The notes below the pieces were generated by a model. That model saw only the letters and a program-made list of their open reading frames with translations, was not told the origin of the DNA and did no database searches. From Halomonas sp. 7T (lineage in GTDB: Bacteria; Pseudomonadota; Gammaproteobacteria; Pseudomonadales; Halomonadaceae), in NCBI RefSeq assembly GCF_025643255.1, contig NZ_CP087112.1, positions 558,001 through 622,000 on the forward strand: a stretch of 64,000 bases of DNA, in the 5' to 3' direction. The translations under genes and the position numbers were made by a program. Below are positions 1,985 to 62,064 of this stretch, one piece after another (position 1 is the stretch's first letter; the number at the start of each line of letters is the position of its first letter).

Positions 1985-2068
1985 AAGTTAAGCTCCCAAG
2001 GTAGGCTTAACTTATGTTTGCTGCTAGTCTCAAAGTATTAGAGCGAACAACGCCGCAGGGAATTTACG

Positions 2069-2353
2069 ATGCAGAATGCCCGCATAACGCTTCACCCTAC
2101 CAACAAACGCATGCAAGTGCGGGTGGATGGTGTTCTGCTAGCCGACTCTAGCAATACGCTTGAACTCCGCGAACACGGCTACCCGCCACGCCACTACTTC
2201 CCATGTGAAGACATGCGGATGGACTTACTCACTGTTTCAGAAAAGACCACTTATTGCCCGTTTAAAGGGCATACGGTGTACTTTTCGCTGGGTGAACGGC
2301 GGGATATTGCTTGGAGTTATGAGGAGCCGGTTGAGCTGTCGCGGGTAGGGTGA
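2069..2353 (+). CDS. DUF427 family protein
   Basis: This 94-residue protein matches the DUF427 family: an all-beta domain with the typical start RITLHPTNKRMQVRVDG, the conserved block ADSSNTLELREHGYPPRHYFP, and the motif TYCPFKGHTVYFSLG followed by IAWSYEEP. The biochemical role of the family is not established. The gene appears complete. It is the last backbone-like gene before the AT-rich island; a diverged repeat and a cassette core site begin within 35-240 bases of its stop codon, so the insertion boundary lies just downstream. Confidence 0.88.
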   Translation: MQNARITLHPTNKRMQVRVDGVLLADSSNTLELREHGYPPRHYFPCEDMRMDLLTVSEKTTYCPFKGHTVYFSLGERRDIAWSYEEPVELSRVG

Positions 2354-2385
2354 CTTTTTATGAAGAAACGTGCGAATGACTTTTT

Positions 2386-2594
2386 CGACCCAAAGCAGCC
2401 CTTCCGACGAAATTGGCATGCTGATTTGGCCGTGTTATGCAGCCGGCACTATAATCCATGTCATTCAGCCTATTTATATTTAATTAATTTTGATTTCAAC
2501 GAGTTAGTTCGTGAATAAAGGGCTGTATACCCTGAATGAACGCGCCGTCGGGTTCATTCAGGTTATGTAGTGGGGTGTGTATTCACTGTTAGGC
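2386..2594 (+). repeat. 209-bp island repeat, copy A
   Basis: This non-coding stretch is paired with an equally long relative at 7653-7861; roughly three quarters of positions agree by eye. It contains a hairpin with arms CCTGAATGAAC (2531-2541) and GTTCATTCAGG (2552-2562). It ends with CACTGTTAGGC, whose GTTAGGC (2588-2594) fits the integron core-site consensus GTTRRRY. The stem differs from copy B by a compensating base-pair change. It may be an attachment-site relative, a leader carried with cassettes, or the end of a mobile element; the sequence does not settle which. Confidence 0.75.
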
Positions 2595-2628
2595 AATTCG
2601 TAGCTCGCCACGGGCAAGTGATTTAAAT

Positions 2629-3513
2629 ATGAATTATTCCAATGAAGTTGATGTGAGAATCGGAACATGCGCGCTCTGCGATCAAGAGGAAGCCAAGTTA
2701 AAGGAATCGCACAGCATTCCTAAGTTTGTTTACCAATGGATCAAAGAAACAAGTCCAACGCCTTATTTGCGAAGCAGTGATAATGTGAATAAGCGTGAAC
2801 AGGATGGGCCTAAAGAATATCTTTTGTGCGAAAAGTGTGAAGGCAATCTTTCGCTAATGGAGGATGAGTTCGCTGAGAAAGCATTCAAAAAAATTGCGAA
2901 CTACCGGGGGCAGGCGCCAGAAATTTTAGTCACAGAACCAATGCGCGTATGCGTCCTATCGATATTTTGGAGAACTCTGCTAACGTCACTGAGCCGAGAA
3001 AACAATCGCACCGATGAAGACAAGAAGGTAATGAACGAGTTTTTGGCATCCGCCAAGCATCAAATTAATAAGAATGTTGCCACAACACCTATCTTTTGGG
3101 CACCGATTTATGGTGACCCTCCGTTCTATGATTTGCCTCTATCTATGACCTATCAACTGGATAGAATGGTTGGCGCACCCGACATACGTTTTTTTGATGA
3201 CCCGCATCGATATTTTGCAGTATTTAAGCTGCCATTTATTTTTTTCTTTATTTTTAGCGAAGGGTGGTCGGATGACAAGGATGACAAAAACAAGTTCGCA
3301 GGCGCCGTTAGTCTGAGTGACATTAAAGTAATTCCGGACTTTCTTCGGGACTATATTAAATTTCTGAACGATCAGTTTGAAGCGTCGAAGCTGGCCATGA
3401 GTAGTTACAATTTAGTGAAAATTGAACAGGAAATTTCTGAAAGTGAAAGAACTACTGGCGCTCACAAATCTCTCGCAAGATCGCAGCGACCCAATAAATC
3501 TGGATATGCCTAA
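2629..3513 (+). CDS. Zinc-cluster (HNH-like) protein of unknown function
   Basis: I do not recognise this 294-residue protein as a named family. Near the N-terminus there is a CxxC (C14, C17), then SHSIPK (His28), and a second CxxC (C67, C70, LLCEKC). This spacing resembles treble-clef zinc folds of HNH-type nucleases, but a complete HNH motif cannot be shown. The rest is mixed alpha/beta with a hydrophobic run FKLPFIFFFIFSEGW near residue 205 that is too short and polar-flanked to call a membrane anchor. Its stop codon lies inside the R'' box of an attC-like site, as in integron cassettes. It precedes a Gabija-like operon, so a role in phage defence is plausible but unproven. Confidence 0.65.
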   Translation: MNYSNEVDVRIGTCALCDQEEAKLKESHSIPKFVYQWIKETSPTPYLRSSDNVNKREQDGPKEYLLCEKCEGNLSLMEDEFAEKAFKKIANYRGQAPEILVTEPMRVCVLSIFWRTLLTSLSRENNRTDEDKKVMNEFLASAKHQINKNVATTPIFWAPIYGDPPFYDLPLSMTYQLDRMVGAPDIRFFDDPHRYFAVFKLPFIFFFIFSEGWSDDKDDKNKFAGAVSLSDIKVIPDFLRDYIKFLNDQFEASKLAMSSYNLVKIEQEISESERTTGAHKSLARSQRPNKSGYA

Positions 3514-3584
3514 CCCCAGCGCTCAACCCTGTTCGCTTCGCTCTCTGGACGCTGCGTGATAAAGCCGCGCAGCGCCGGTTAGCT
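3508..3584 (+). other. Probable attC recombination site (cassette 1)
   Basis: R'' GCCTAAC (3508-3514, exact RYYYAAC) overlaps the stop codon of the preceding gene. It is followed by CCCAGCGCTCAAC, a form familiar from attC sites of pseudomonads and xanthomonads. The right end is GTTAGCT (3578-3584), one mismatch from GTTRRRY. GCGCT (3519-3523) can pair with AGCGC (3571-3575). The length of 77 bases is in the normal attC range. The inner pairing is less regular than at 8787-8841, so this is less certain. Confidence 0.5.
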
Positions 3585-3672
3585 CTACGATATGTCGATA
3601 GCGAAGTGCAACGAAGATATTGATTTTAATTGTTGACAGGTTTGTCTATTTGCATATTAGCAAGGAGGAAGA

Positions 3673-5679
3673 ATGAAAATAAAAAGTGCCCGCATCAAAA
3701 ATTATCGCTTGTTGAAAGACGTATGTCTGAGCCTAGATGACAGAACGACACTGATTGTTGGGCGAAACAATTCTGGTAAAACTTCGTTTGCTGAAATATT
3801 CCGGAGCTTCCTAAGTTCAACGGGGCCGAAGGTTCGTTATGAGGACTTTAATCAGTCTTGTTTAGCAGAGTTTGAAAAAGCCTTAGAGGCTTTCAAAAAA
3901 GGTAAAGAAGAAGAAGTCATTCGTCTCTTGATGCCAGCGATTGAGCTACAGCTACTTATCCACTATAAAGACGATGAGAACGATTTTGGAGTCTTGGGTG
4001 ACTTTATTATTGATCTCGACGATGCATTGTTTGAAACCTATATATTGGTTTCTTACCAGTTAAAAGACGGAAAGATTAAGGATTTCTTTCAGGCACTGGA
4101 TGCAGCTAATCGCAAAAAATATTTTGCTGATCTTAAAGTTTTGATCAACCAGCATTACGAGCCCGCGATCTATGCGATCGAACCGACCAATTTGAATAAT
4201 AAGGTCAGGCTCGAATTCTCTTCCTTCAAACGGTTGATATTGTCAGGATTAATTAATGCTCAGCGCGGCCTCGATGATGAAACTCACAATGAGCGCGATG
4301 TGCTGGGGAAGTCACTAGGAAACATTTTTAAAAGTGCAAACAGTGCCGGTGCGCCTGAAGCATTTAAAGCCAAGTCCGATGAAGTCAATACAGTAGTAGA
4401 AGCACTCCAAGAGAAAGTCGATACGGACTTTCAGGAGAAAGTAAAAGCGCTTTTGCCAACGCTTAACATCTTTGGGTATCCCGGTCTGCAAGATCCAAAT
4501 TTGAGTGCTGCTACTGAGCTAAATGTAACGTCATTGTTGGAGAGCAATACTAGGGTATTCTATGCAGGCGATGATCATTTTACTCTGCCAGAAACCTACA
4601 ATGGCTTGGGTATTCGTAATTTGATTTTTATTCTCTTTCGAATCTATGAGTACTTTAGAGAGTTCCAGTCACAGCCTACCCCACCGAAAGGCCATTTAAT
4701 TTTTATCGAAGAGCCCGAAGCCCATCTGCATCCGCAAATGCAGGAAGTTTTCATTCGTCAGCTTGAGGAAATAGTCAGTGAGTTCCAAAAGCAGCTTAAT
4801 GATGGGAATATTTGGCCAGTGCAGTTTGTGGTCAGTACGCATTCCTCACATATAGCCAACGAAGCAGATTTTAGCAAAGTCCGTTATTTTTTATCCAAGG
4901 GGAGAAAGGGAACCAAGGTGAAAGACCTGGGCGAAGCATTTGGCAGCGATGAGGTGAAGGAAGACAAAGAATTTTTGCATAAGTATTTAACCCTGACCAA
5001 GAGCGACCTCTATTTTGCAGATAGAGCAATTCTTATCGAAGGGGCCACTGAAAGAATTCTACTGCCTGAGATGATTAAAAAAGTGGATGAGACGCGGCAG
5101 TGTGGTTTACGCAGAAAGTATATGTCTGTAGTCGAGGTTGGTGGAGCCTATGCTCATCATTTTTATAAGTTCATCGACTTTCTTGAGCTACAGACCCTGT
5201 TCATTACTGATTTGGATTCGGTAAAGAAAACCGAAGGTGGGAAGAAGGCAACATATCCTGCTTCAATGGTAAGTGATGGTTCACATTCAAGTAACGTAGG
5301 CCTGTCTAAATGGTTTGGGATAGATGGGTATTCTGAATTGAAGGATATACGTTTAAAAGACGATAATACTAAAATTTCTGGATGTCGTCGATTAGCGTTT
5401 CAGGTGGATGAAGGTGAAAGTGGTCTGTGTGGCCGTAGCTTTGAGGATGCGTTTATTCTGGCGAATACAACCCTTTTTGAATTAAAGGATAAAAAGGGTG
5501 TGGAGCTGGAAAATTCTGTTTTTGCACTGTCTAAAAAAATTGGAAGTAAAAGTAAAGCTAACTTTGCTATTAAATATGCTATTGAAACAACAGATTGGTG
5601 TGTTCCTGAGTATATTTTAGAAGGGCTCGAATGGCTGGCTAAAGACGTTGCGTTTAATGCTGAGGAGGTTCAGCCATGA
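3673..5679 (+). CDS. gajA: Gabija-like GajA: OLD-family ATPase with TOPRIM nuclease
   Basis: This 668-residue protein has an N-terminal ABC/SMC-type ATPase: Walker A GRNNSGKTS at residues 30-38 and the Walker B/signature region FIEEPEAHLHP near residue 345. The C-terminal part is a TOPRIM nuclease: ILIEGATERILLPE near 453 supplies the conserved Glu, and ITDLDS near 513 the DxD motif. This is the layout of OLD-family nucleases. The neighbouring UvrD-type helicase, overlapping by 4 bases, places the pair in OLD class 2, the Gabija phage-defence system. The protein is longer than the characterised GajA (about 580 residues). An AGGAGG ribosome-binding site lies just before the ATG at 3673. The gene is AT-rich compared with recBCD nearby, consistent with transfer. 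Confidence 0.75.
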   Translation: MKIKSARIKNYRLLKDVCLSLDDRTTLIVGRNNSGKTSFAEIFRSFLSSTGPKVRYEDFNQSCLAEFEKALEAFKKGKEEEVIRLLMPAIELQLLIHYKDDENDFGVLGDFIIDLDDALFETYILVSYQLKDGKIKDFFQALDAANRKKYFADLKVLINQHYEPAIYAIEPTNLNNKVRLEFSSFKRLILSGLINAQRGLDDETHNERDVLGKSLGNIFKSANSAGAPEAFKAKSDEVNTVVEALQEKVDTDFQEKVKALLPTLNIFGYPGLQDPNLSAATELNVTSLLESNTRVFYAGDDHFTLPETYNGLGIRNLIFILFRIYEYFREFQSQPTPPKGHLIFIEEPEAHLHPQMQEVFIRQLEEIVSEFQKQLNDGNIWPVQFVVSTHSSHIANEADFSKVRYFLSKGRKGTKVKDLGEAFGSDEVKEDKEFLHKYLTLTKSDLYFADRAILIEGATERILLPEMIKKVDETRQCGLRRKYMSVVEVGGAYAHHFYKFIDFLELQTLFITDLDSVKKTEGGKKATYPASMVSDGSHSSNVGLSKWFGIDGYSELKDIRLKDDNTKISGCRRLAFQVDEGESGLCGRSFEDAFILANTTLFELKDKKGVELENSVFALSKKIGSKSKANFAIKYAIETTDWCVPEYILEGLEWLAKDVAFNAEEVQP

Positions 5680-7442
5680 CCAACATAAACCCTGCCGAGC
5701 AGGCTTCTATAGAAGCGCTAGAGAAGCTAAGGAGCTGTATTGATAAAGGTCAGTGTTTTCGTTTAGAAGCAGGTGCTGGTGCAGGCAAAACCTATTCCTT
5801 GATCGAATCAATTAGGTATTTGATATCGAATCGCGCAGCTGATTTACTAGGTAGTCAGCAGCAGATAGCATGTATTACATACACAAACGTAGCAAAGGAT
5901 GAAATAAAGGATAGAACGGATCATCATCCAGTTATATTTGCCGATACAATTCATGCGTTCTGCTGGAGCATACTGCAACATTACCAGATTAAGCTTCGAG
6001 AACATCTTCCAGAACTTGGTGAAAAATGGAAAAATCGAATAGATGATTCGGTAGGTGTCACGAACCAGAAGGTTAAGTACGAGTTAGGGTTTCCCGCTGT
6101 CAATGAGCGCGAAATTACTTTGCATCATGATGACGTAGTCGGGTTGATGGCGCGCATGCTTATGTATCCAAAGTTTCAGAAGCGACTTAAAAGCAAGTTC
6201 CCTATTGTTTTAATCGATGAGTACCAGGATACCAATAGCAAGCTGGCTGATAGCATTGTCACTAATCTTATCGATAATGACTCCGGTGTAATGGTTGGCC
6301 TTTTCGGCGATCATTGGCAGAAAATCTACGGCGCTACAGCATGCGGCTTAATTTCGAGCGAAAAAGGAAAAATCGTAGAGATCGGAAAAAAAGCAAACTT
6401 CCGGTCGGATCGAAATATAGTTCAGTGTTTTAACAGAATGCGTCCAGATCTGCCTCAAGCAGAATCAGACCCTAACTCAAATGGAGTGATAAAAGTTTTC
6501 CACTCCAATAATTGGGTGGGTGCCAGGAGAGATGGTAAAGGCGGCGGCCACTGGAAGGGTGATCTTCCAGAATGCAATGTGAAGGAATATATTGAGAAAA
6601 CGAAAGAGTTGATGGTTGCAGATGAATGGGATATGTCTCCCAAGAAAACTAAAATCTTGTTTTTAACAAACAACCTTATAGCAAGTGAGCAAAACTTTAA
6701 GAATCTTACTGATTGCTTTCGATATACAGACGACTATCTCAAAAAAAATGACAAATATGTCCAGTTTTTTCTTGAGGTGATAGAGCCAACTGTATTCGCT
6801 TATGAAAAACAGCAATATGGTGGATTGTTGCAGATTAAAAAGAAAAACCATCCACCATTGAAGTGTCAGGCTGATAAAACAGAATGGTTAAATATTCTTG
6901 ATAGAATAATGCACGCAAGAAAAAATTCTAACGTTGGCGATATGCTAGACATTTTGATGGAAACCAAAGTGCTTAGAGTTTTATCAAAAATTGAAGAATC
7001 AGAAAATCGATATAAGCGTCTGATATTAAAGTCGATTGACGAGCTGGATGAGGATGAGGCGAAATTTGTGGAAAAGCTTAGAAAGTTGCGCTCCGTCGAT
7101 TATCTTGAGGTTGCTAACCTGGGTGAGTACATCGATGCAAAGACGCCTTTCTCGACGAAGCACGGCGTGAAAGGAGCGCAATTTGATAATGTTCTTGTCG
7201 TTTGTGGTCGCGGATGGAATCAGTACAACTGGAATCAGATGTTGGAGTGGATGGACGGTAGCTGTCCCGAAGACAAAAAGGATACGTTTGAGCGAAATCG
7301 AAACTTGTTCTACGTGAGCTGCTCGAGAGCTAAACACAATCTCACTTTGCTGTTTACGCAAGAGTTATCCGATAAGTCAATAACGGTACTTGATAGGATA
7401 TTTGGCAAAGATAATGTATTAGGTAGCCCACTTGATGCTTAG
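5676..7442 (+). CDS. gajB: Gabija-like GajB: UvrD/Rep-type helicase
   Basis: This 588-residue protein is a superfamily 1 helicase. Walker A is EAGAGAGKTY (residues 31-40), motif II is IDEYQDTNS near residue 180, the motif V region is KGAQFDNVLVV near 498, and motif VI is FYVSCSRAKHN near 546. The ATG overlaps the GajA stop codon (ATGA) and has a GAGGAGG ribosome-binding site inside the GajA gene, so the two are translationally coupled. In Gabija systems GajB is thought to sense or process nucleic acid and to activate the GajA nuclease. It is somewhat longer than the characterised GajB (about 490 residues). No frameshift is visible. Other OLD-helicase arrangements remain possible. Confidence 0.75.
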   Translation: MTNINPAEQASIEALEKLRSCIDKGQCFRLEAGAGAGKTYSLIESIRYLISNRAADLLGSQQQIACITYTNVAKDEIKDRTDHHPVIFADTIHAFCWSILQHYQIKLREHLPELGEKWKNRIDDSVGVTNQKVKYELGFPAVNEREITLHHDDVVGLMARMLMYPKFQKRLKSKFPIVLIDEYQDTNSKLADSIVTNLIDNDSGVMVGLFGDHWQKIYGATACGLISSEKGKIVEIGKKANFRSDRNIVQCFNRMRPDLPQAESDPNSNGVIKVFHSNNWVGARRDGKGGGHWKGDLPECNVKEYIEKTKELMVADEWDMSPKKTKILFLTNNLIASEQNFKNLTDCFRYTDDYLKKNDKYVQFFLEVIEPTVFAYEKQQYGGLLQIKKKNHPPLKCQADKTEWLNILDRIMHARKNSNVGDMLDILMETKVLRVLSKIEESENRYKRLILKSIDELDEDEAKFVEKLRKLRSVDYLEVANLGEYIDAKTPFSTKHGVKGAQFDNVLVVCGRGWNQYNWNQMLEWMDGSCPEDKKDTFERNRNLFYVSCSRAKHNLTLLFTQELSDKSITVLDRIFGKDNVLGSPLDA

Positions 7443-7652
7443 GCTCTGCTTGTATTTAATCAGTGTGATGAAAGGGTATAACAATAAGTGTCAGTCGTAA
7501 AATTTGTTCCTTGGCTCTTTTTATTCTGGCCGCTACGCTAGCAAAAACTGCCGCTTCTCTCAGCGTTATATTAGATTTCCTCAACATCCGCTCTTGGCCG
7601 GATGCAGAACTTCGGGTTACGCTGATGGAGATGGATCTGGAGCGGCAACTGA

Positions 7653-7861
7653 CGACCCAAAGCGGCCCTTCCGGCGAAAGCGGCATGCTGATTCAGATGT
7701 GTTATGCAGCCCGCGCGATAATCTATGTTATACTGCCTATCTATACTTAATATATATTAATTTCAATGTGATAGATCGTGAATTATTGGCTGTATAACCT
7801 CAATGAACGCGTCGGTGAGTTCATTGAGGTTATGTAGAAGAGAGTATAATCACTGTTAGGT
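7653..7861 (+). repeat. 209-bp island repeat, copy B
   Basis: This is the partner of the repeat at 2386-2594, of identical length. It contains a perfect 15-bp hairpin: arms ATAACCTCAATGAAC (7794-7808) and GTTCATTGAGGTTAT (7819-7833). It ends with CACTGTTAGGT; GTTAGGT (7855-7861) is an exact GTTRRRY core. The DUF6602 gene starts 13 bases later. The rest of the 7443-7874 gap holds no gene that can be supported: a TTG-initiated frame at 7511-7750 crosses the repeat and has no recognisable features. Confidence 0.75.
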
Positions 7862-7874
7862 TTAAAAGGTAGTT

Positions 7875-8786
7875 ATGAGTGTAAATAGGTTTTATAAAAT
7901 TGAACAAGAGATGCTTTTGCTAGAAGCGGAGAAAGTGTCACTTTTTACAAAGCACAATCCATCTATAGGCAGTTATCGTGAGGCTGTTTTAAGGGATTAT
8001 ATAAGAAAATTTCTACCTAGTACGATAGAGGTGAAATCAGGCTTTATTGCCAAAAATGACAATCAGGATGAAATTTCTAACAGTCAGAGCAGGCAGGTTG
8101 ATTTACTTATATATAGCAATGAGAAATTCATCCCGTTATTAGAGACTGATGATTTTTCTGTAGTTCGTCCTGAATCTTTTCTAGGTTGTATTGAAGTAAA
8201 GTCAACGCTTACTTTCTATAAAGAAAAAAGGCCTAATGGCTCAAAGGAAACCAATAAAGACTACCCGTTCGGCGGCGGTTATACTGAAGCTTATCGATGG
8301 AGTGGTACTTTAGTTGATGCTCTAAAAAACATCCAAGCTGCCGCACATGTCTGCAGGGATAAAGAACGAACTTACTATAGCGGGATTATCGCATACTCTT
8401 CAACCTTCGACCCCCATAAGGTCTATGAGGCTCTAGATAATGGTGATCTTCAAGAACAGCTTGGATTAAATCATTTAAAAGAATTGCCAATGAATATCTG
8501 TGTGATTGGAAATTTTATTACTTTGTTTTCACATGTCGAATTAATACAAGAACATGGTAAGTGTTATGAAGACTCCCACTACGAGTACGAATCTTACTAC
8601 AATGAAATCTCCGTTAGCGGTGAAGATTTTCAATACCCTCTTCAATTCTTTTCTGTTAATGCCCACAATCAAATATGCTATCTTCATTCTGGGAAAGCGC
8701 CCGATGACGTAGGGCTATTTTCTGCTATGACTGCGAGAATGAAGTTTAGGATGATGCATTTTGATTTAATGTCAGATGGAATATAA
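7875..8786 (+). CDS. DUF6602 family, nuclease-like protein
   Basis: This 303-residue protein looks like the DUF6602 group found in defence contexts. GSYREAVLRDYIRKFLP (residues 32-48) followed by a conserved EVKSGF, then RQVDLLIY (Asp76) and GCIEVKS (Glu107, Lys109), can be read as a PD-(D/E)xK nuclease core (E37, D76, ExK 107-109). The C-terminal part is without recognisable motifs. A role in cleaving foreign DNA is inferred from the motif and location and is not demonstrated. The gene starts 13 bases after a cassette core site and ends directly before a canonical attC, so it forms a clean single-gene cassette. No toxin or methylase partner is next to it. Confidence 0.7.
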   Translation: MSVNRFYKIEQEMLLLEAEKVSLFTKHNPSIGSYREAVLRDYIRKFLPSTIEVKSGFIAKNDNQDEISNSQSRQVDLLIYSNEKFIPLLETDDFSVVRPESFLGCIEVKSTLTFYKEKRPNGSKETNKDYPFGGGYTEAYRWSGTLVDALKNIQAAAHVCRDKERTYYSGIIAYSSTFDPHKVYEALDNGDLQEQLGLNHLKELPMNICVIGNFITLFSHVELIQEHGKCYEDSHYEYESYYNEISVSGEDFQYPLQFFSVNAHNQICYLHSGKAPDDVGLFSAMTARMKFRMMHFDLMSDGI

Positions 8787-8841
8787 ACCTAACAAGTAAA
8801 TCCAGCTGACGCCTACAGCGCACCTGATTTAGGCGTTATAT
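8787..8841 (+). other. attC recombination site (canonical fold)
   Basis: This 55-base site follows the DUF6602 stop codon directly. R'' is ACCTAAC (8787-8793), pairing through TAAC with GTTA of R' (8835-8841, GTTATAT). Three unpaired bases on each side (AAG/GGC) follow. L'' TAAATCCAG (8797-8805) pairs with L' CTGATTTA (8824-8831), leaving one extra C bulged. Then TG-A-CGC (8807-8812) pairs with GCGCA (8818-8822), leaving one A bulged, with a 5-base loop. On the bottom strand the two bulges are G and T, exactly the extrahelical bases that integron integrase recognises. Confidence 0.85.
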
Positions 8842-8871
8842 CAGAGACTCCTAAAAGGCGGCTCCTGGCCG

Positions 8872-8898
8872 AAAACTGACACCATCAACGATGATGTC
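8872..8898 (-). terminator. Possible terminator of recBD
   Basis: Just downstream of the recD stop, GACA-C-CATC and GATG-A-TGTC (8878-8898) form a short stem with one mismatch and a 3-base loop. It is followed on the minus strand by TTTT (8872-8875). The stem is short, so termination may be weak. Confidence 0.4.
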
Positions 8899-8906
8899 GG
8901 CTTTGA

Positions 8907-11114
8907 TTACAACTTCTCCATTCCACTAACCCTCATAACCTCCCTAGTGACCGCATCATTCAATATTCCGCGCTTGGCTTCCACCACCGTGAGCCATTCG
9001 CGGGCGCGGGTAATGCCGGTATAGACCAGCCCGCGGGTCAGGATGGGGCTTAGCGTGGGTGGCAACAGCAGGGCGGTGTGCAAGAACTCCGAGCCTTGGG
9101 ACTTGTGAACCGTCATCGCAAACACGGTTTCTACCGCGTGCAGGCGGGAGGGCAGCACCCAGCGGATGGGCTTTTCGGTGTCGCTGCTGGGGAACGCGAC
9201 TCTTAATAGCGTTTGCTGCGGGTGGCGCGGGTCGGGCACGGCCAGGGTAATGCCGATATCGCCGTTCATTAGTTTCAGGCCGTAGTCGTTTTGAGTAACC
9301 AGTACCGGGCGGCCTTCGTACCAGCCTTTCTCCAACGTGTAGTCACTGCCGTACAGCAGCTTTTCGCGGCGCAATGTGCTGGCGATACGCTGGTTTAATC
9401 CTTCTACCCCCCAGGGGCCTTTGCGCAGCGCGCACAGCAGTTGGAAGTGGCTGTAGGCGCTGAGTACCTCACTGGCCCAGGTGTTGTAGGCGGTTTGGTT
9501 CTCCTCGAATGACTCCCCCCGTGGGCGCTGTGCGTGCAGCACGTTGAGATAGTGGCGGTAGCCCGTGGGCGGGGTGATGGGCTGGCCTTCGCGGTCGGTG
9601 CGGCCTTCGCCGTTGCCCGCAAAACCGTTTGGGTTGCCGTGAATCACCAGCTTATCCAATGCGGCGTCGTCACTCATTACCAAGTGGTGAATATCCGGGT
9701 AGCCGTGGCGCAGCACGGCCGTTACCGCCTGCTGTTTTTCCCGTTCGCTTTGGGTATGGCCCGGCTGGTTAATGGCTTTTGCCAACTGGCCGATGCCGCT
9801 GTGTTCATTGAAGCGGTGGCTAACCCGCAGCATGGTAATGGCTTGGTCGAGTGGTTGGCCTGCGGGGTCGGTGAAATCTGCGGGCAGCGGTTGCCCGGTG
9901 GCCTGGGCTAGCCAGTCGGCGGTGGCCGGGGTGTAGTGGGCGTCGTCGGCGCGGCGGCATAGGTCGCCGAGTACCGAGCCTGCCTCTACCGAGGCGAGCT
10001 GGTCTTTATCCCCCAGCAGAATGCACTGGGCGTGGGCGGGCAGGGCACTGAGGGTGGCGGCCATCATTTCGATATCCACCATCGAGGCTTCGTCGATCAC
10101 CAGCACATCCAGCGCCAGCGGATTGGCGGCGCTGTGGCGGAAGTGGCGGGTGTCGGGGCGTGCGCCGAGTAGGCGGTGCAGTGTTGTCACTTCCGTAGGA
10201 ATCGCGACCTCGCTGTCTGCCGCAGAAGGTGAGTGTTCACTTAACAGCGTTGCCAGCTCAGCGAGCGGTAACGCATTCACCTGTCCGGCAATGGATTCGT
10301 TCAAGCGGGCGGCGGCTTTGCCGGTGGGGGCGGCTAGGCGAATGCGCAGCGGCTGGCTGGGGTGCTGGGCCAGTTGCAGGGTTTGCAGCAGGGCGAGCAG
10401 GCGCACCACGGTGGTGGTTTTGCCGGTGCCTGGGCCACCGGTAATAATGCCGAAGCGGCTGCGGGCGGCCAGGGCGCAGGCGGTTTTTTGCCAGTCTAGG
10501 CCGTTGCTTTGTTTGAACAGGATGTTGAGCGCTTGGGGGAGTAACCCCGAGGCGCTGGCGTCATTCGTTTCTTCCAGGCGGGCGGCGATGTGTTGGTGCA
10601 GGCTTTGCTCGTACTGCCAGTAGCGGCGCAGGTAGAGCCGCGTGCTGGGGGTGCCGCTGGCTGAGTGAGTGGTCACTACTACCAGCGGCGTGTTGCCGGG
10701 GCCTTCGCTAATGAGCAGCGGGTGGTGCAGGGCGGCTTGCCATTCGCTGAGCGTGAGCGTGGCCAGCACGTCGCTGGGCAGCGGCGGCGGGTCGGTGAGG
10801 TCGTCGCCTTCGGGCGGAAGTGAAAGGGCGAAATCCGGCGCGTTCAGCGTGGCGTTAATATCCAGGCATACGTGGCCGCGGCCTAGCTGGTGGCTGGCAA
10901 GTGCTGCCGCCAGTAGCAGCAGCGTGGGGGCATCTGGGGCTTCGCTGGCTAAAAAGCGCACCAGTGCGCGGTCTAAATCCCGCAGCCAGCCGCGTGCTAC
11001 CCAGCGTTCGCACAGAGCCAGCAGTTCCGGGGTGCTGCTGAGTGCCGGGTGGGCGCTGGCGGTGGGCGCGTCGCTAAACATATCGAAAGTGTGGCTATCG
11101 TGCTGGCGGCTCAT
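8907..11114 (-). CDS. recD: RecBCD enzyme subunit RecD (exodeoxyribonuclease V alpha)
   Basis: This 735-residue protein is the 5'-3' helicase of RecBCD, which processes double-strand breaks and degrades linear foreign DNA. Walker A is GGPGTGKTTTV near residue 228, motif II is VLVIDEASMVD, and the C-terminal motif is FAMTVHKSQGSEF followed by YTGITRAREWL. It overlaps the end of recB by 4 bases, so the two are translationally coupled. The length is slightly above E. coli RecD (608) because of insertions between the N-terminal domain and the helicase and around the segment before LNVLHAQRPRG. It is the last gene of the leftward pair, with a small stem-loop downstream. The AT-rich defence island lies immediately beyond. 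Confidence 0.96.
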   Translation of the reverse strand: MSRQHDSHTFDMFSDAPTASAHPALSSTPELLALCERWVARGWLRDLDRALVRFLASEAPDAPTLLLLAAALASHQLGRGHVCLDINATLNAPDFALSLPPEGDDLTDPPPLPSDVLATLTLSEWQAALHHPLLISEGPGNTPLVVVTTHSASGTPSTRLYLRRYWQYEQSLHQHIAARLEETNDASASGLLPQALNILFKQSNGLDWQKTACALAARSRFGIITGGPGTGKTTTVVRLLALLQTLQLAQHPSQPLRIRLAAPTGKAAARLNESIAGQVNALPLAELATLLSEHSPSAADSEVAIPTEVTTLHRLLGARPDTRHFRHSAANPLALDVLVIDEASMVDIEMMAATLSALPAHAQCILLGDKDQLASVEAGSVLGDLCRRADDAHYTPATADWLAQATGQPLPADFTDPAGQPLDQAITMLRVSHRFNEHSGIGQLAKAINQPGHTQSEREKQQAVTAVLRHGYPDIHHLVMSDDAALDKLVIHGNPNGFAGNGEGRTDREGQPITPPTGYRHYLNVLHAQRPRGESFEENQTAYNTWASEVLSAYSHFQLLCALRKGPWGVEGLNQRIASTLRREKLLYGSDYTLEKGWYEGRPVLVTQNDYGLKLMNGDIGITLAVPDPRHPQQTLLRVAFPSSDTEKPIRWVLPSRLHAVETVFAMTVHKSQGSEFLHTALLLPPTLSPILTRGLVYTGITRAREWLTVVEAKRGILNDAVTREVMRVSGMEKL

Positions 11115-61682: not shown

Positions 61683-61769
61683 TGGTGCCCAGGAGAGGAC
61701 TTGAACCTCCACGTCCATACGGACACTAGCACCTGAAGCTAGCGCGTCTACCAATTCCGCCACCTGGGC
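61683..61769 (-). tRNA. tRNA-Leu(CAG), copy 1
   Basis: On the minus strand the sequence starts GCCCAGGTGGCGGAATTGG and ends in TCCTGGGCACCA. It is 87 bases including an encoded CCA, with the long variable arm of tRNA-Leu. The anticodon loop is TTCAGGT, so the anticodon is CAG. It closely follows E. coli tRNA-Leu(CAG). It is the last of three tandem copies, transcribed leftward. Confidence 0.95.
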
Positions 61770-61814
61770 ATATCATTCACAACATATACCAAGCATGGGC
61801 TGCTTATATTCGTA

Positions 61815-61901
61815 TGGTGCCCAGGAGAGGACTTGAACCTCCACGTCCATACGGACACTAGCACCTGAAGCTAGCGCGTCTACCAATTCCGCCACCTGGG
61901 C
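61815..61901 (-). tRNA. tRNA-Leu(CAG), copy 2
   Basis: This is an 87-base minus-strand tRNA with an encoded CCA. It is identical to copy 1 across the full tRNA by eye, with anticodon CAG. It is separated from copy 1 by 45 bases and from copy 3 by 76 bases; the three are probably processed from one transcript. Confidence 0.95.
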
Positions 61902-61977
61902 GAATATAAGCTTAATGCCTATGCCACTTGCGTTTGCACCTAACCATATTATGAAAAGGGGATAACATAATATGATT

Positions 61978-62064
61978 TGGTGCCCAGAAGAGGACTTGAA
62001 CCTCCACGTCCATACGGACACTAGCACCTGAAGCTAGCGCGTCTACCAATTCCGCCATCTGGGC
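61978..62064 (-). tRNA. tRNA-Leu(CAG), copy 3 (promoter-proximal)
   Basis: This 87-base minus-strand tRNA has the same anticodon CAG and encoded CCA. It differs from the other two copies in the acceptor stem: GCCCAGA/TCTGGGC in place of GCCCAGG/CCTGGGC. The change at position 7 is compensated at position 66, so the stem is kept. It is the first of the three in the transcript. Confidence 0.95.

Follow-up and report, generated by a model that had tools for sequence, protein, structure and literature searches.

In a 64,000-nucleotide stretch of the complete 3,634,557-bp chromosome of Halomonas sp. 7T (contig NZ_CP087112.1, positions 558,001 to 622,000; hereafter the window, in whose coordinates all positions are given unless stated), four genes of one orientation lie between a DUF427 gene and recD. 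We read the interval 2386-8871 as two tandem integron platforms that lack an integrase and whose cassettes were captured at attI, and we give this reading a probability of about 75%. Platform 1 holds an HNH-like gene and Gabija, and platform 2 holds a DUF6602 gene; judging by the sequences of Gabija, the nuclease-like DUF6602 gene and the HNH-like gene, the cargo is probably anti-phage. The reading rests on the homology of a repeat to attI, the order and strand of attI, attC and a recurring right end, the limits of the Gabija cassette, the absence of the integrase gene intI, and cargo that differs between species. Coordinates are collected in Table 1. G000 denotes the genome that holds the window, other G-numbers the genomes compared, and L-numbers the loci or sources fetched.

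A preliminary description of the same DNA had reported defence cassettes here, and it largely stands but understated the case and missed the 208-nucleotide (nt) repeat that is the key to the locus. It had placed a zinc-cluster protein, a Gabija-like pair and a DUF6602 protein in one orientation, within an AT-rich region beside two backbone genes. All four open reading frames (ORFs) do lie on the plus strand (2629-8786), the guanine-cytosine (GC) content is 0.39-0.46 in 1-kb bins from 2001 to 9000 and 0.52-0.65 elsewhere in the first 15 kb, and Pfam identifies both neighbours. The stop codons that it saw in or next to R'' boxes are there as well, that of gene 1 inside GCCTAAC (3508-3514) and that of the DUF6602 gene directly before ACCTAAC (8787-8793), and its limits, 2589 and 8835, coincide exactly with the outer crossovers. 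What it took for deposit at a secondary site is instead a location formed by a pair of attI-bearing platforms with recurring ends, dispersed in the genus and family.

The repeat is direct, its copies are 80% identical, and one (2386-2593) precedes gene 1 and the other (7653-7860) precedes gene 4, the DUF6602 gene. Each copy contains a hairpin whose arms differ between the copies by a paired change. Integron integrases cut at G/TTRRRY (the slash marks the crossover), and when 15 of the 20 fetched copies are aligned, the five minus-strand matches being left out, the conserved part of the repeat stops at TATAATCACTG/TT. Among 27 unique copies the pairwise identity is 0.79-1.00 over the last 10 bases before the crossover and 1.00 at both T, followed by 0.79, then 0.36-0.42 over three bases and 0.23-0.34 beyond; these copies were gathered by a pattern ending at TT, so the high identity is partly due to selection and the drop is independent of it. 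The edge is the same in the alignment of 15 copies, which BLAST selected. Similarly, in the conservation profiles of the left and right blocks that bound a platform, the collecting patterns span the blocks, so within-block identity is partly selected.

At E <= 1e-40 the integrase model hits 24 of the 82 genus genomes, 19 of them above its cut-off and G000 not among them. In five of the 10 intI loci that were read (L044, L046, L048, L049 and L050), a similar hairpin and TATAATCACTG/TT stand just upstream of a divergent intI, and the end of the repeat is 76-84% identical to this intI-linked attI over 56-75 nt; four other loci have a different attI, ending TAATACCTG/TT, and none was seen in the remaining one. 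The first part of the left block has no match in these 10 loci. Because its last part matches intI-linked attI, with hairpin and TATAATCACTG/TT, the 208-nt repeat is, on sequence grounds, one that ends in the attI of one integron type, here without intI. A transposable repeat unrelated to integrons was considered and rejected, since the last 56-75 nt match attI beside intI. The repeat has matches in 51 of the 82 genomes at E <= 0.001, a count that takes in partial copies and intI-linked attI sites. Ahead of the crossover a TATAAT-like box is conserved (GTGTAT in copy 1).

Two further observations concern attI. Shortened left blocks in L028, L029, L033 and L160 stop near GATAATCTATG/TT and pass directly into other sequence, as though an inner G/TT of that block had been used as a crossover too. 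A third attI-like remnant, of a different type, lies elsewhere in the chromosome (G000:C1:1639118-1639193, minus strand; locus L003/L039), and the 10 kb around it contain no intI match and no attC match up to E 0.5.

Each platform is closed by a right-end block of 35-36 nt that begins in the R' box of the last attC. Allowing up to three mismatches, its pattern occurs in 63 of the 275 family genomes, which belong to 6 of 24 genera (reversed-pattern control, 0), the exact matches falling in Vreelandella and Halomonas records; the pattern does not catch the window's own first right end. With looser patterns, 16 of 42 sources hold both a left and a right block, co-linear and on one strand in all 16. 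The block patterns have no match in shuffled sequence (1.47 Mb of strand), and neither end block occurs in any of the nine intI-array loci searched (2.3-19.9 kb each, fetched on the attI side). Tandem units like those in the window are also present in G028 and G077. Outside the blocks the sequence becomes random within about 10 positions, and every second base from -3 to -9 before the left block is partly conserved, an alternation that fits inverted repeats at both ends. The left and right ends are imperfect inverted repeats, agreeing at 14 of 18 inner consensus positions, with a mean identity of 0.69 in register versus 0.11-0.34 when shifted to nine other registers. The paired ends of 21 elements show no consistent target-site duplication (lengths 2-9), no transposase is encoded among the four genes of 2386-8871, and the platform has no match in either the plasmid or the phage sequence collection.

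To locate attC sites we trained a covariance model on 23 examples from intI-bearing arrays of the genus, with the test loci outside the training set. The training sites were proposed by a home-made scorer, which gives many false hits and served for proposals only, and were picked by eye for the form RYYYAACMA...GCGTTRRRY (32 picked, 23 used). The plus-strand site at 8787-8841 is the best match in the 64 kb (E 0.017), and its bottom strand folds as an attC would; the sole other match up to E 5 in the window (13.6 bits) lies inside recB. The site after Gabija, 7476-7571, scores at E 0.96 and is homologous to a well-folded attC in another genus. Of the three candidate attC sites, with no integrase near them, one is recovered by score and one by homology, but 3507-3596 went undetected and is unproven. 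Scored against background, as the preliminary description had proposed, the last site passes and the Gabija site passes through its relative, but the window's own Gabija attC and 3507-3596 are at background level. Across 33 sources (581 kb) all 52 attC matches up to E 0.5 lie on the strand of the local attI, and at 14 of 23 right ends an attC ends at a fixed offset (+3 in 11, -5 in 3). A second set of 27 loci (102 kb), which is no clean negative control, gave nine matches up to E 0.5, in the recD-site loci L103 (twice), L105 and L108, in L107, and near other DUF427 genes in L068, L070, L076 and L078.

The Gabija cassette provides the most precise boundaries. GajA (PADLOC PDLC00063, 897.9 bits; Pfam PF13175 and PF20469) has AAA ATPase and TOPRIM domains, GajB (PDLC00113, 822.6 bits) is a UvrD-like helicase, and the genes overlap, as in known Gabija (GajAB); here the pair is packed as an integron cassette with attC. 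Relatives of GajA at E <= 1e-60 occur in 11 of 275 family genomes, G000 included; the one in G128, a genome of another genus, shares 90% identity. When window 2301-9000 was aligned with 19.9 kb of G128, only one match appeared, 89.6% identical over 3,959 bp (window 3588-7543), which in G128 begins at the end of an attC, GCG/TTATGTC, and ends in an attC of its own. The G128 array has six attC-model matches, all on one strand, no similarity to the window flanks in the compared stretch and no integrase match at E <= 1e-40. Gabija is, as these alignments place its ends, one two-gene cassette of 3,976 bp with attC-precise limits in two genera. The earlier suggestion that integrons can carry large defence modules is borne out to the extent that this cassette lies between attC sites in another genus. 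GTTAGCT at 3578-3584 had been a candidate for the R' box of cassette 1 and is weakened by this comparison, in which the Gabija homology starts at the base matching window 3588. In the window the upstream crossover of the cassette reads G/AT, about 18 nt of its attC are missing by eye relative to G128, and the fold z-score is +0.24 versus -5.09 in G128; because the attC fold is lost and the crossover reads G/AT, the cassette is probably immobile in G000. On plasmids, 26 records matched the cassette, with best identities of 60-90% and none covering 80% of the query.

The other two cargo genes are less well known. The zinc cluster described earlier for gene 1 rests on CxxC...H...CxxC, a motif that does not vary across an alignment of the window protein with 21 homologues (22 sequences); the protein has no match in Pfam, PADLOC or NCBIfam, and its confidently predicted structure (predicted local distance difference test score, pLDDT, 85.7) finds no fold in the PDB at E <= 0.001 (best match, E 0.31). 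The family is wide, with 91 proteins at E <= 0.001, the closest being from Vreelandella glaciei (97%). We call the product HNH-like on its motif and regard it as a candidate defence protein, as yet uncharacterised. The DUF6602 protein (Pfam E 3.5e-17) shows a weaker resemblance to NucC and PD-DExK nucleases, in agreement with the nuclease-like character noted before.

At the DUF427-recD site the cargo turns over between species. Among 49 genomes with a DUF427 match 11 were tested, and in eight of these a single contig carries both flanks; G000 and G035 complete the set. In the resulting ten species the interval measures 2.6-7.7 kb and is occupied in all ten, so the empty site joining 2386 to 8841 that the preliminary description had proposed to look for was not found. 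Its alternative of a gene order conserved across the genus without attC sites is contradicted by the differing cargo: between intervals, matches (E <= 1e-5, one strand) are limited to the ends and attI, except that the interiors of G046 and G066 share two short stretches of 48 and 70 nt. Gabija models match in G000, G046, G066 and G077, the best GajA model differing in each, and G066 has Gabija (GajB partial) together with PDC-S71. PADLOC further identifies PDC-S53 in G020, ThsB/TIR proteins with a patatin effector in G049 (4 of 8 ORFs scanned), TIR proteins with PDC-S60 in G025 and AbiU in G017, and finds no match among the ORFs scanned in G070 (2 of 8) and G035 (1 of 2). Known or candidate defence is thus present in 8 of 10 intervals. 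Near the site, extra recD 3' ends occur at L085:4097-4300 (G017) and L154:1932-2345 (G077); from their sequence these are the trace of insertion or recombination there.

Platforms elsewhere have a different content. Eighteen two-ended units, with 0.8-10.4 kb of cargo, contain 56 ORFs of at least 70 amino acids (aa), 46 of which read in the attI direction; the set omits nine attI loci without a recognised right end, and no element was obtained from L120, L129 or the second L127 unit. At 1e-10, 25 PADLOC families are listed, each matching one or two of the 56 cargo proteins, which leaves the idea that platforms mainly carry defence everywhere unsupported, and a Pfam scan shows mixed content that includes insertion-sequence transposases. 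The content of the other platforms therefore limits the prevalence of defence to the recD site rather than to platforms in general. A gene encoding a tyrosine recombinase of 208 aa (PF00589, E 2.5e-19) is present in 8 of 56 sources (L127:4859-5482, minus strand, and L096, L100, L113, L114, L125, L129 and L137) and absent from the window. It sits between a right end and the next left end in L127 and L137, where it is 100% identical, and mostly beside one end in the other sources that hold it; its DNA occurs as a repeat in 33 of the 82 genus genomes.

We found no intI in the window or, as had been suggested as a check, elsewhere in the complete chromosome: the best frame scores 78.7 bits against the 265-bit cut-off of TIGR02249, and weak matches of this kind also occur in all 14 control genomes. 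Because intI is missing from the genome, insertion in trans is the most likely route of capture. IntI, encoded elsewhere in an ancestor or brought by transfer, would insert circular cassettes at the attI crossover G/TT; an inserted cassette would leave its attC abutting the right block, which would close the array, and a promoter at the attI end would read into the first cassette gene. Capture in trans, the activity of that promoter and the defence activity of the cargo are what we infer from the comparisons.

Several results weigh against the two-platform reading. Recombination itself was not observed. Of the four sites that the model matches up to E 10, both strands included, none is the putative attC of cassette 1 (3507-3596); the model also finds no attC at 9 of 23 right ends, and nine fetched attI loci have no recognised right end (L115-L118, L121, L123, L124, L130 and L131). 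An empty platform, with attI joined directly to the right block at up to three mismatches, was found in 0 of 275 genomes, in a search that is strict given that right ends vary by more than three mismatches. A promoter consensus scan gave 13 promoter-like sites against 14.7 in shuffles. Platforms are no commoner in genomes that carry intI: by hand count 47 of 82 genus genomes are right-end-positive, and intI is present in 11 of these and absent from 36, compared with 13 of the 35 negative genomes that have it (Fisher p 0.22). Most platform cargo elsewhere is not recognised defence. At the recD site an attI-like left block is present in only three of ten intervals (G000, G020 and G035) and a right-end model attC in only four (G000, G020, G046 and G066), and because so few intervals show these features, part of the turnover may be of other origin.

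A more conventional account would be an ordinary cluster of attC sites lacking integron integrases (CALIN), in which a complete integron at this place lost intI by deletion and decayed to attI and cassettes. CALINs are common, and passages in two papers explain them as degraded integrons (PMC9024848) or by off-target insertion, intI loss or rearrangement (PMC8618304). The attI-like remnant at G000:C1:1639118-1639193, with no recognised intI, fits such a fate. Decay in place does not readily account for two tandem copies here and, elsewhere, several per genome at different sites with the same two ends, nor for the absence of both ends from all nine intI-array loci and of the left block's first part from the 10 intI loci, and we consider it unlikely.

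Two further accounts dispense with integron capture. A transposon or tyrosine-recombinase island, whose recombinase swaps whole inserts at inverted-repeat ends while the integron sites are incidental, would make sense of the imperfect inverted repeats (14 of 18 positions, 0.69 in register versus 0.11-0.34) and of the repeated tyrosine recombinase gene near platform ends (8 of 56 sources; 33 of 82 genomes), but 48 of 56 sources, the window included, lack that gene, the 21 elements have no consistent target-site duplication, attC ends at the right block in 14 of 23 cases and the Gabija limits are attC-precise in two genera; its chances appear slim. Slimmer still are those of a recombination hotspot at which homologous recombination through the conserved DUF427 and recD flanks swaps the cargo. 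Conserved flanks around nearly unrelated interiors in ten species and the duplicated recD 3' ends in G017 and G077 are what a hotspot would produce, but the strict order of attI, attC and right block at many other sites is left unexplained, as are the boundaries of Gabija in G128, whose compared stretch has no similarity to the window flanks.

The reading as two integrase-less platforms can be extended, with somewhat less than even confidence, to a distinct class of element, which we here call 'satellite integrons': small units bounded by inverted repeats and reduced to attI, promoter and right end, which would borrow IntI in trans and be spread by another recombinase. It is just as tentative that such units load and swap cassettes at many chromosomal sites of Vreelandella and Halomonas relatives. 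The integrase might come from incoming DNA, and the spreader is perhaps the 208-aa tyrosine recombinase. For mobility of whole platforms, the inverted repeats speak in favour and the missing target-site duplication speaks against classical transposition. Known integrons mobilised by inverted repeats like those of miniature inverted-repeat transposable elements (MITEs) carry intI1; the platforms share the flanking inverted repeats with them and differ in having neither intI nor a target duplication. In the usual view, one integrase serves one landing site and one array, of which the first cassettes are expressed best. Scattered platforms with attI and a probable promoter would give each captured cassette a first-position slot, and some so-called degraded integrase-less clusters would be outposts that depend on an integrase elsewhere. 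If satellite integrons exist, a single integrase would supply many landing sites where cassettes are expressed, among them a defence hotspot beside recBCD. Such platforms may escape standard tools: passages in PMC9024848 state that IntegronFinder does not detect attI outside class 1, which is unmodelled, and by default does not report CALINs with a single attC.

Integrons as defence stores and CALINs are already known; the apparent novelties are dispersed platforms that have an attI and fixed ends of their own, and a Gabija cassette of full size. A literature search at the level of titles and abstract openings, mostly outside subscription journals, returned nothing on dispersed attI-bearing integrase-less platforms and nothing on Gabija as an integron cassette. 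CALINs, in the sense of Cury et al. as given in passages of PMC8618304 and PMC9024848, likewise have attC cassettes and no intI nearby, but each window platform is headed by its own attI and closed by a right end that recurs, an order kept at many sites, often with few cassettes. Anti-phage cassettes are described from sedentary chromosomal and mobile integrons (Darracq 2025, Kieffer 2025 and Getz 2025, via passages in PMC12409362 and PMC13064858), which are reported to hold them in small, streamlined form and to lack systems of more than two genes. In contrast to these stores, a full-length two-gene Gabija here occupies one 4-kb cassette on an integrase-less platform, and its presence in two genera runs against the reported small size of integron-borne defence. 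Xanthomonas CALINs, too, are clusters that lack an integrase and recur at shared chromosomal sites in different species (near recD as well in X. cissicola), and they hold some defence genes (20 orthologous genes, 1.8%); the relevant passages of that paper differ in describing no attI or conserved end blocks (PMC12444791). Delta-attI gene cassettes, in which attI pieces replace attC in class 1 and 2 arrays (passages in PMC12901181), and attG genomic insertion sites (Loot 2024, as cited in PMC12444791) are comparable in showing IntI at work on displaced attI pieces and genomic sites, whereas here whole attI regions head separate chromosomal platforms. Halophile integrons have been mined in a study whose main text does not name Halomonas (PMC7923331), and integrons and Gabija are treated, in passages of PMC8649781, as cargo of Tn7-like transposons.

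Table 1 Features of the two platforms and their flanks, in window coordinates.
Feature	Position	Strand	Basis
Flank: DUF427 gene	2069..2353	+	Pfam PF04248, E 1.7e-23
Platform 1 left block: left inverted repeat and orphan attI with putative promoter (Pc), 3' end CACTG/	2386..2588	+	80% identity to 7653-7860
attI hairpin, platform 1	2527..2566	+	Kept in copy 2 with paired change; similar hairpin adjoins intI elsewhere
Cassette 1, about 1,001 bp	2589..3589	+	Limits are the attI crossover and the start of cassette 2 homology
Gene 1, 294 aa, HNH-like zinc motif protein	2629..3513	+	Motif; Pfam, PADLOC and NCBIfam searches negative
Putative degenerate attC of cassette 1	3507..3596	+	R''-like GCCTAAC; attC model silent; fold z -0.78
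Cassette 2, Gabija, 3,976 bp	3590..7565	+	DNA identity 89.6% to G128 over window 3588-7543, attC-bounded there
gajA	3673..5679	+	Pfam and PADLOC models
gajB, 4-nt overlap with gajA	5676..7442	+	Pfam and PADLOC models
Decayed attC of Gabija cassette	7476..7571	+	8.8 bits; homologue L151:7933-8045 (-), 20.3 bits
Right-end block of platform 1, divergent variant	7566..7600	+	Similar variants in L099, L114, L120
Linker joining the tandem platforms	7601..7652	+	By eye; similar linkers in L031, L100
Platform 2 left block: left inverted repeat and orphan attI with putative Pc	7653..7855	+	Repeat and copy alignments
attI hairpin, platform 2, 15-bp perfect arms	7794..7833	+	
Cassette 3, 980 bp	7856..8835	+	attI crossover to attC crossover
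DUF6602 gene, 303 aa, PD-DExK/NucC-like	7875..8786	+	Pfam, PADLOC
attC of cassette 3	8787..8841	+	20.3 bits, best in window; bottom-strand fold z -3.52
Right-end block of platform 2	8836..8871	+	Pattern in 63/275 family genomes
Flank: recD	8907..11114	-	Pfam RecD_N, E 2.2e-25

Outside the platforms, a YefM-YoeB toxin-antitoxin pair lies upstream of the site (584-1097), and three tRNA-Leu(CAG) genes stand in tandem on the minus strand near the far end of the window (61683-62064).

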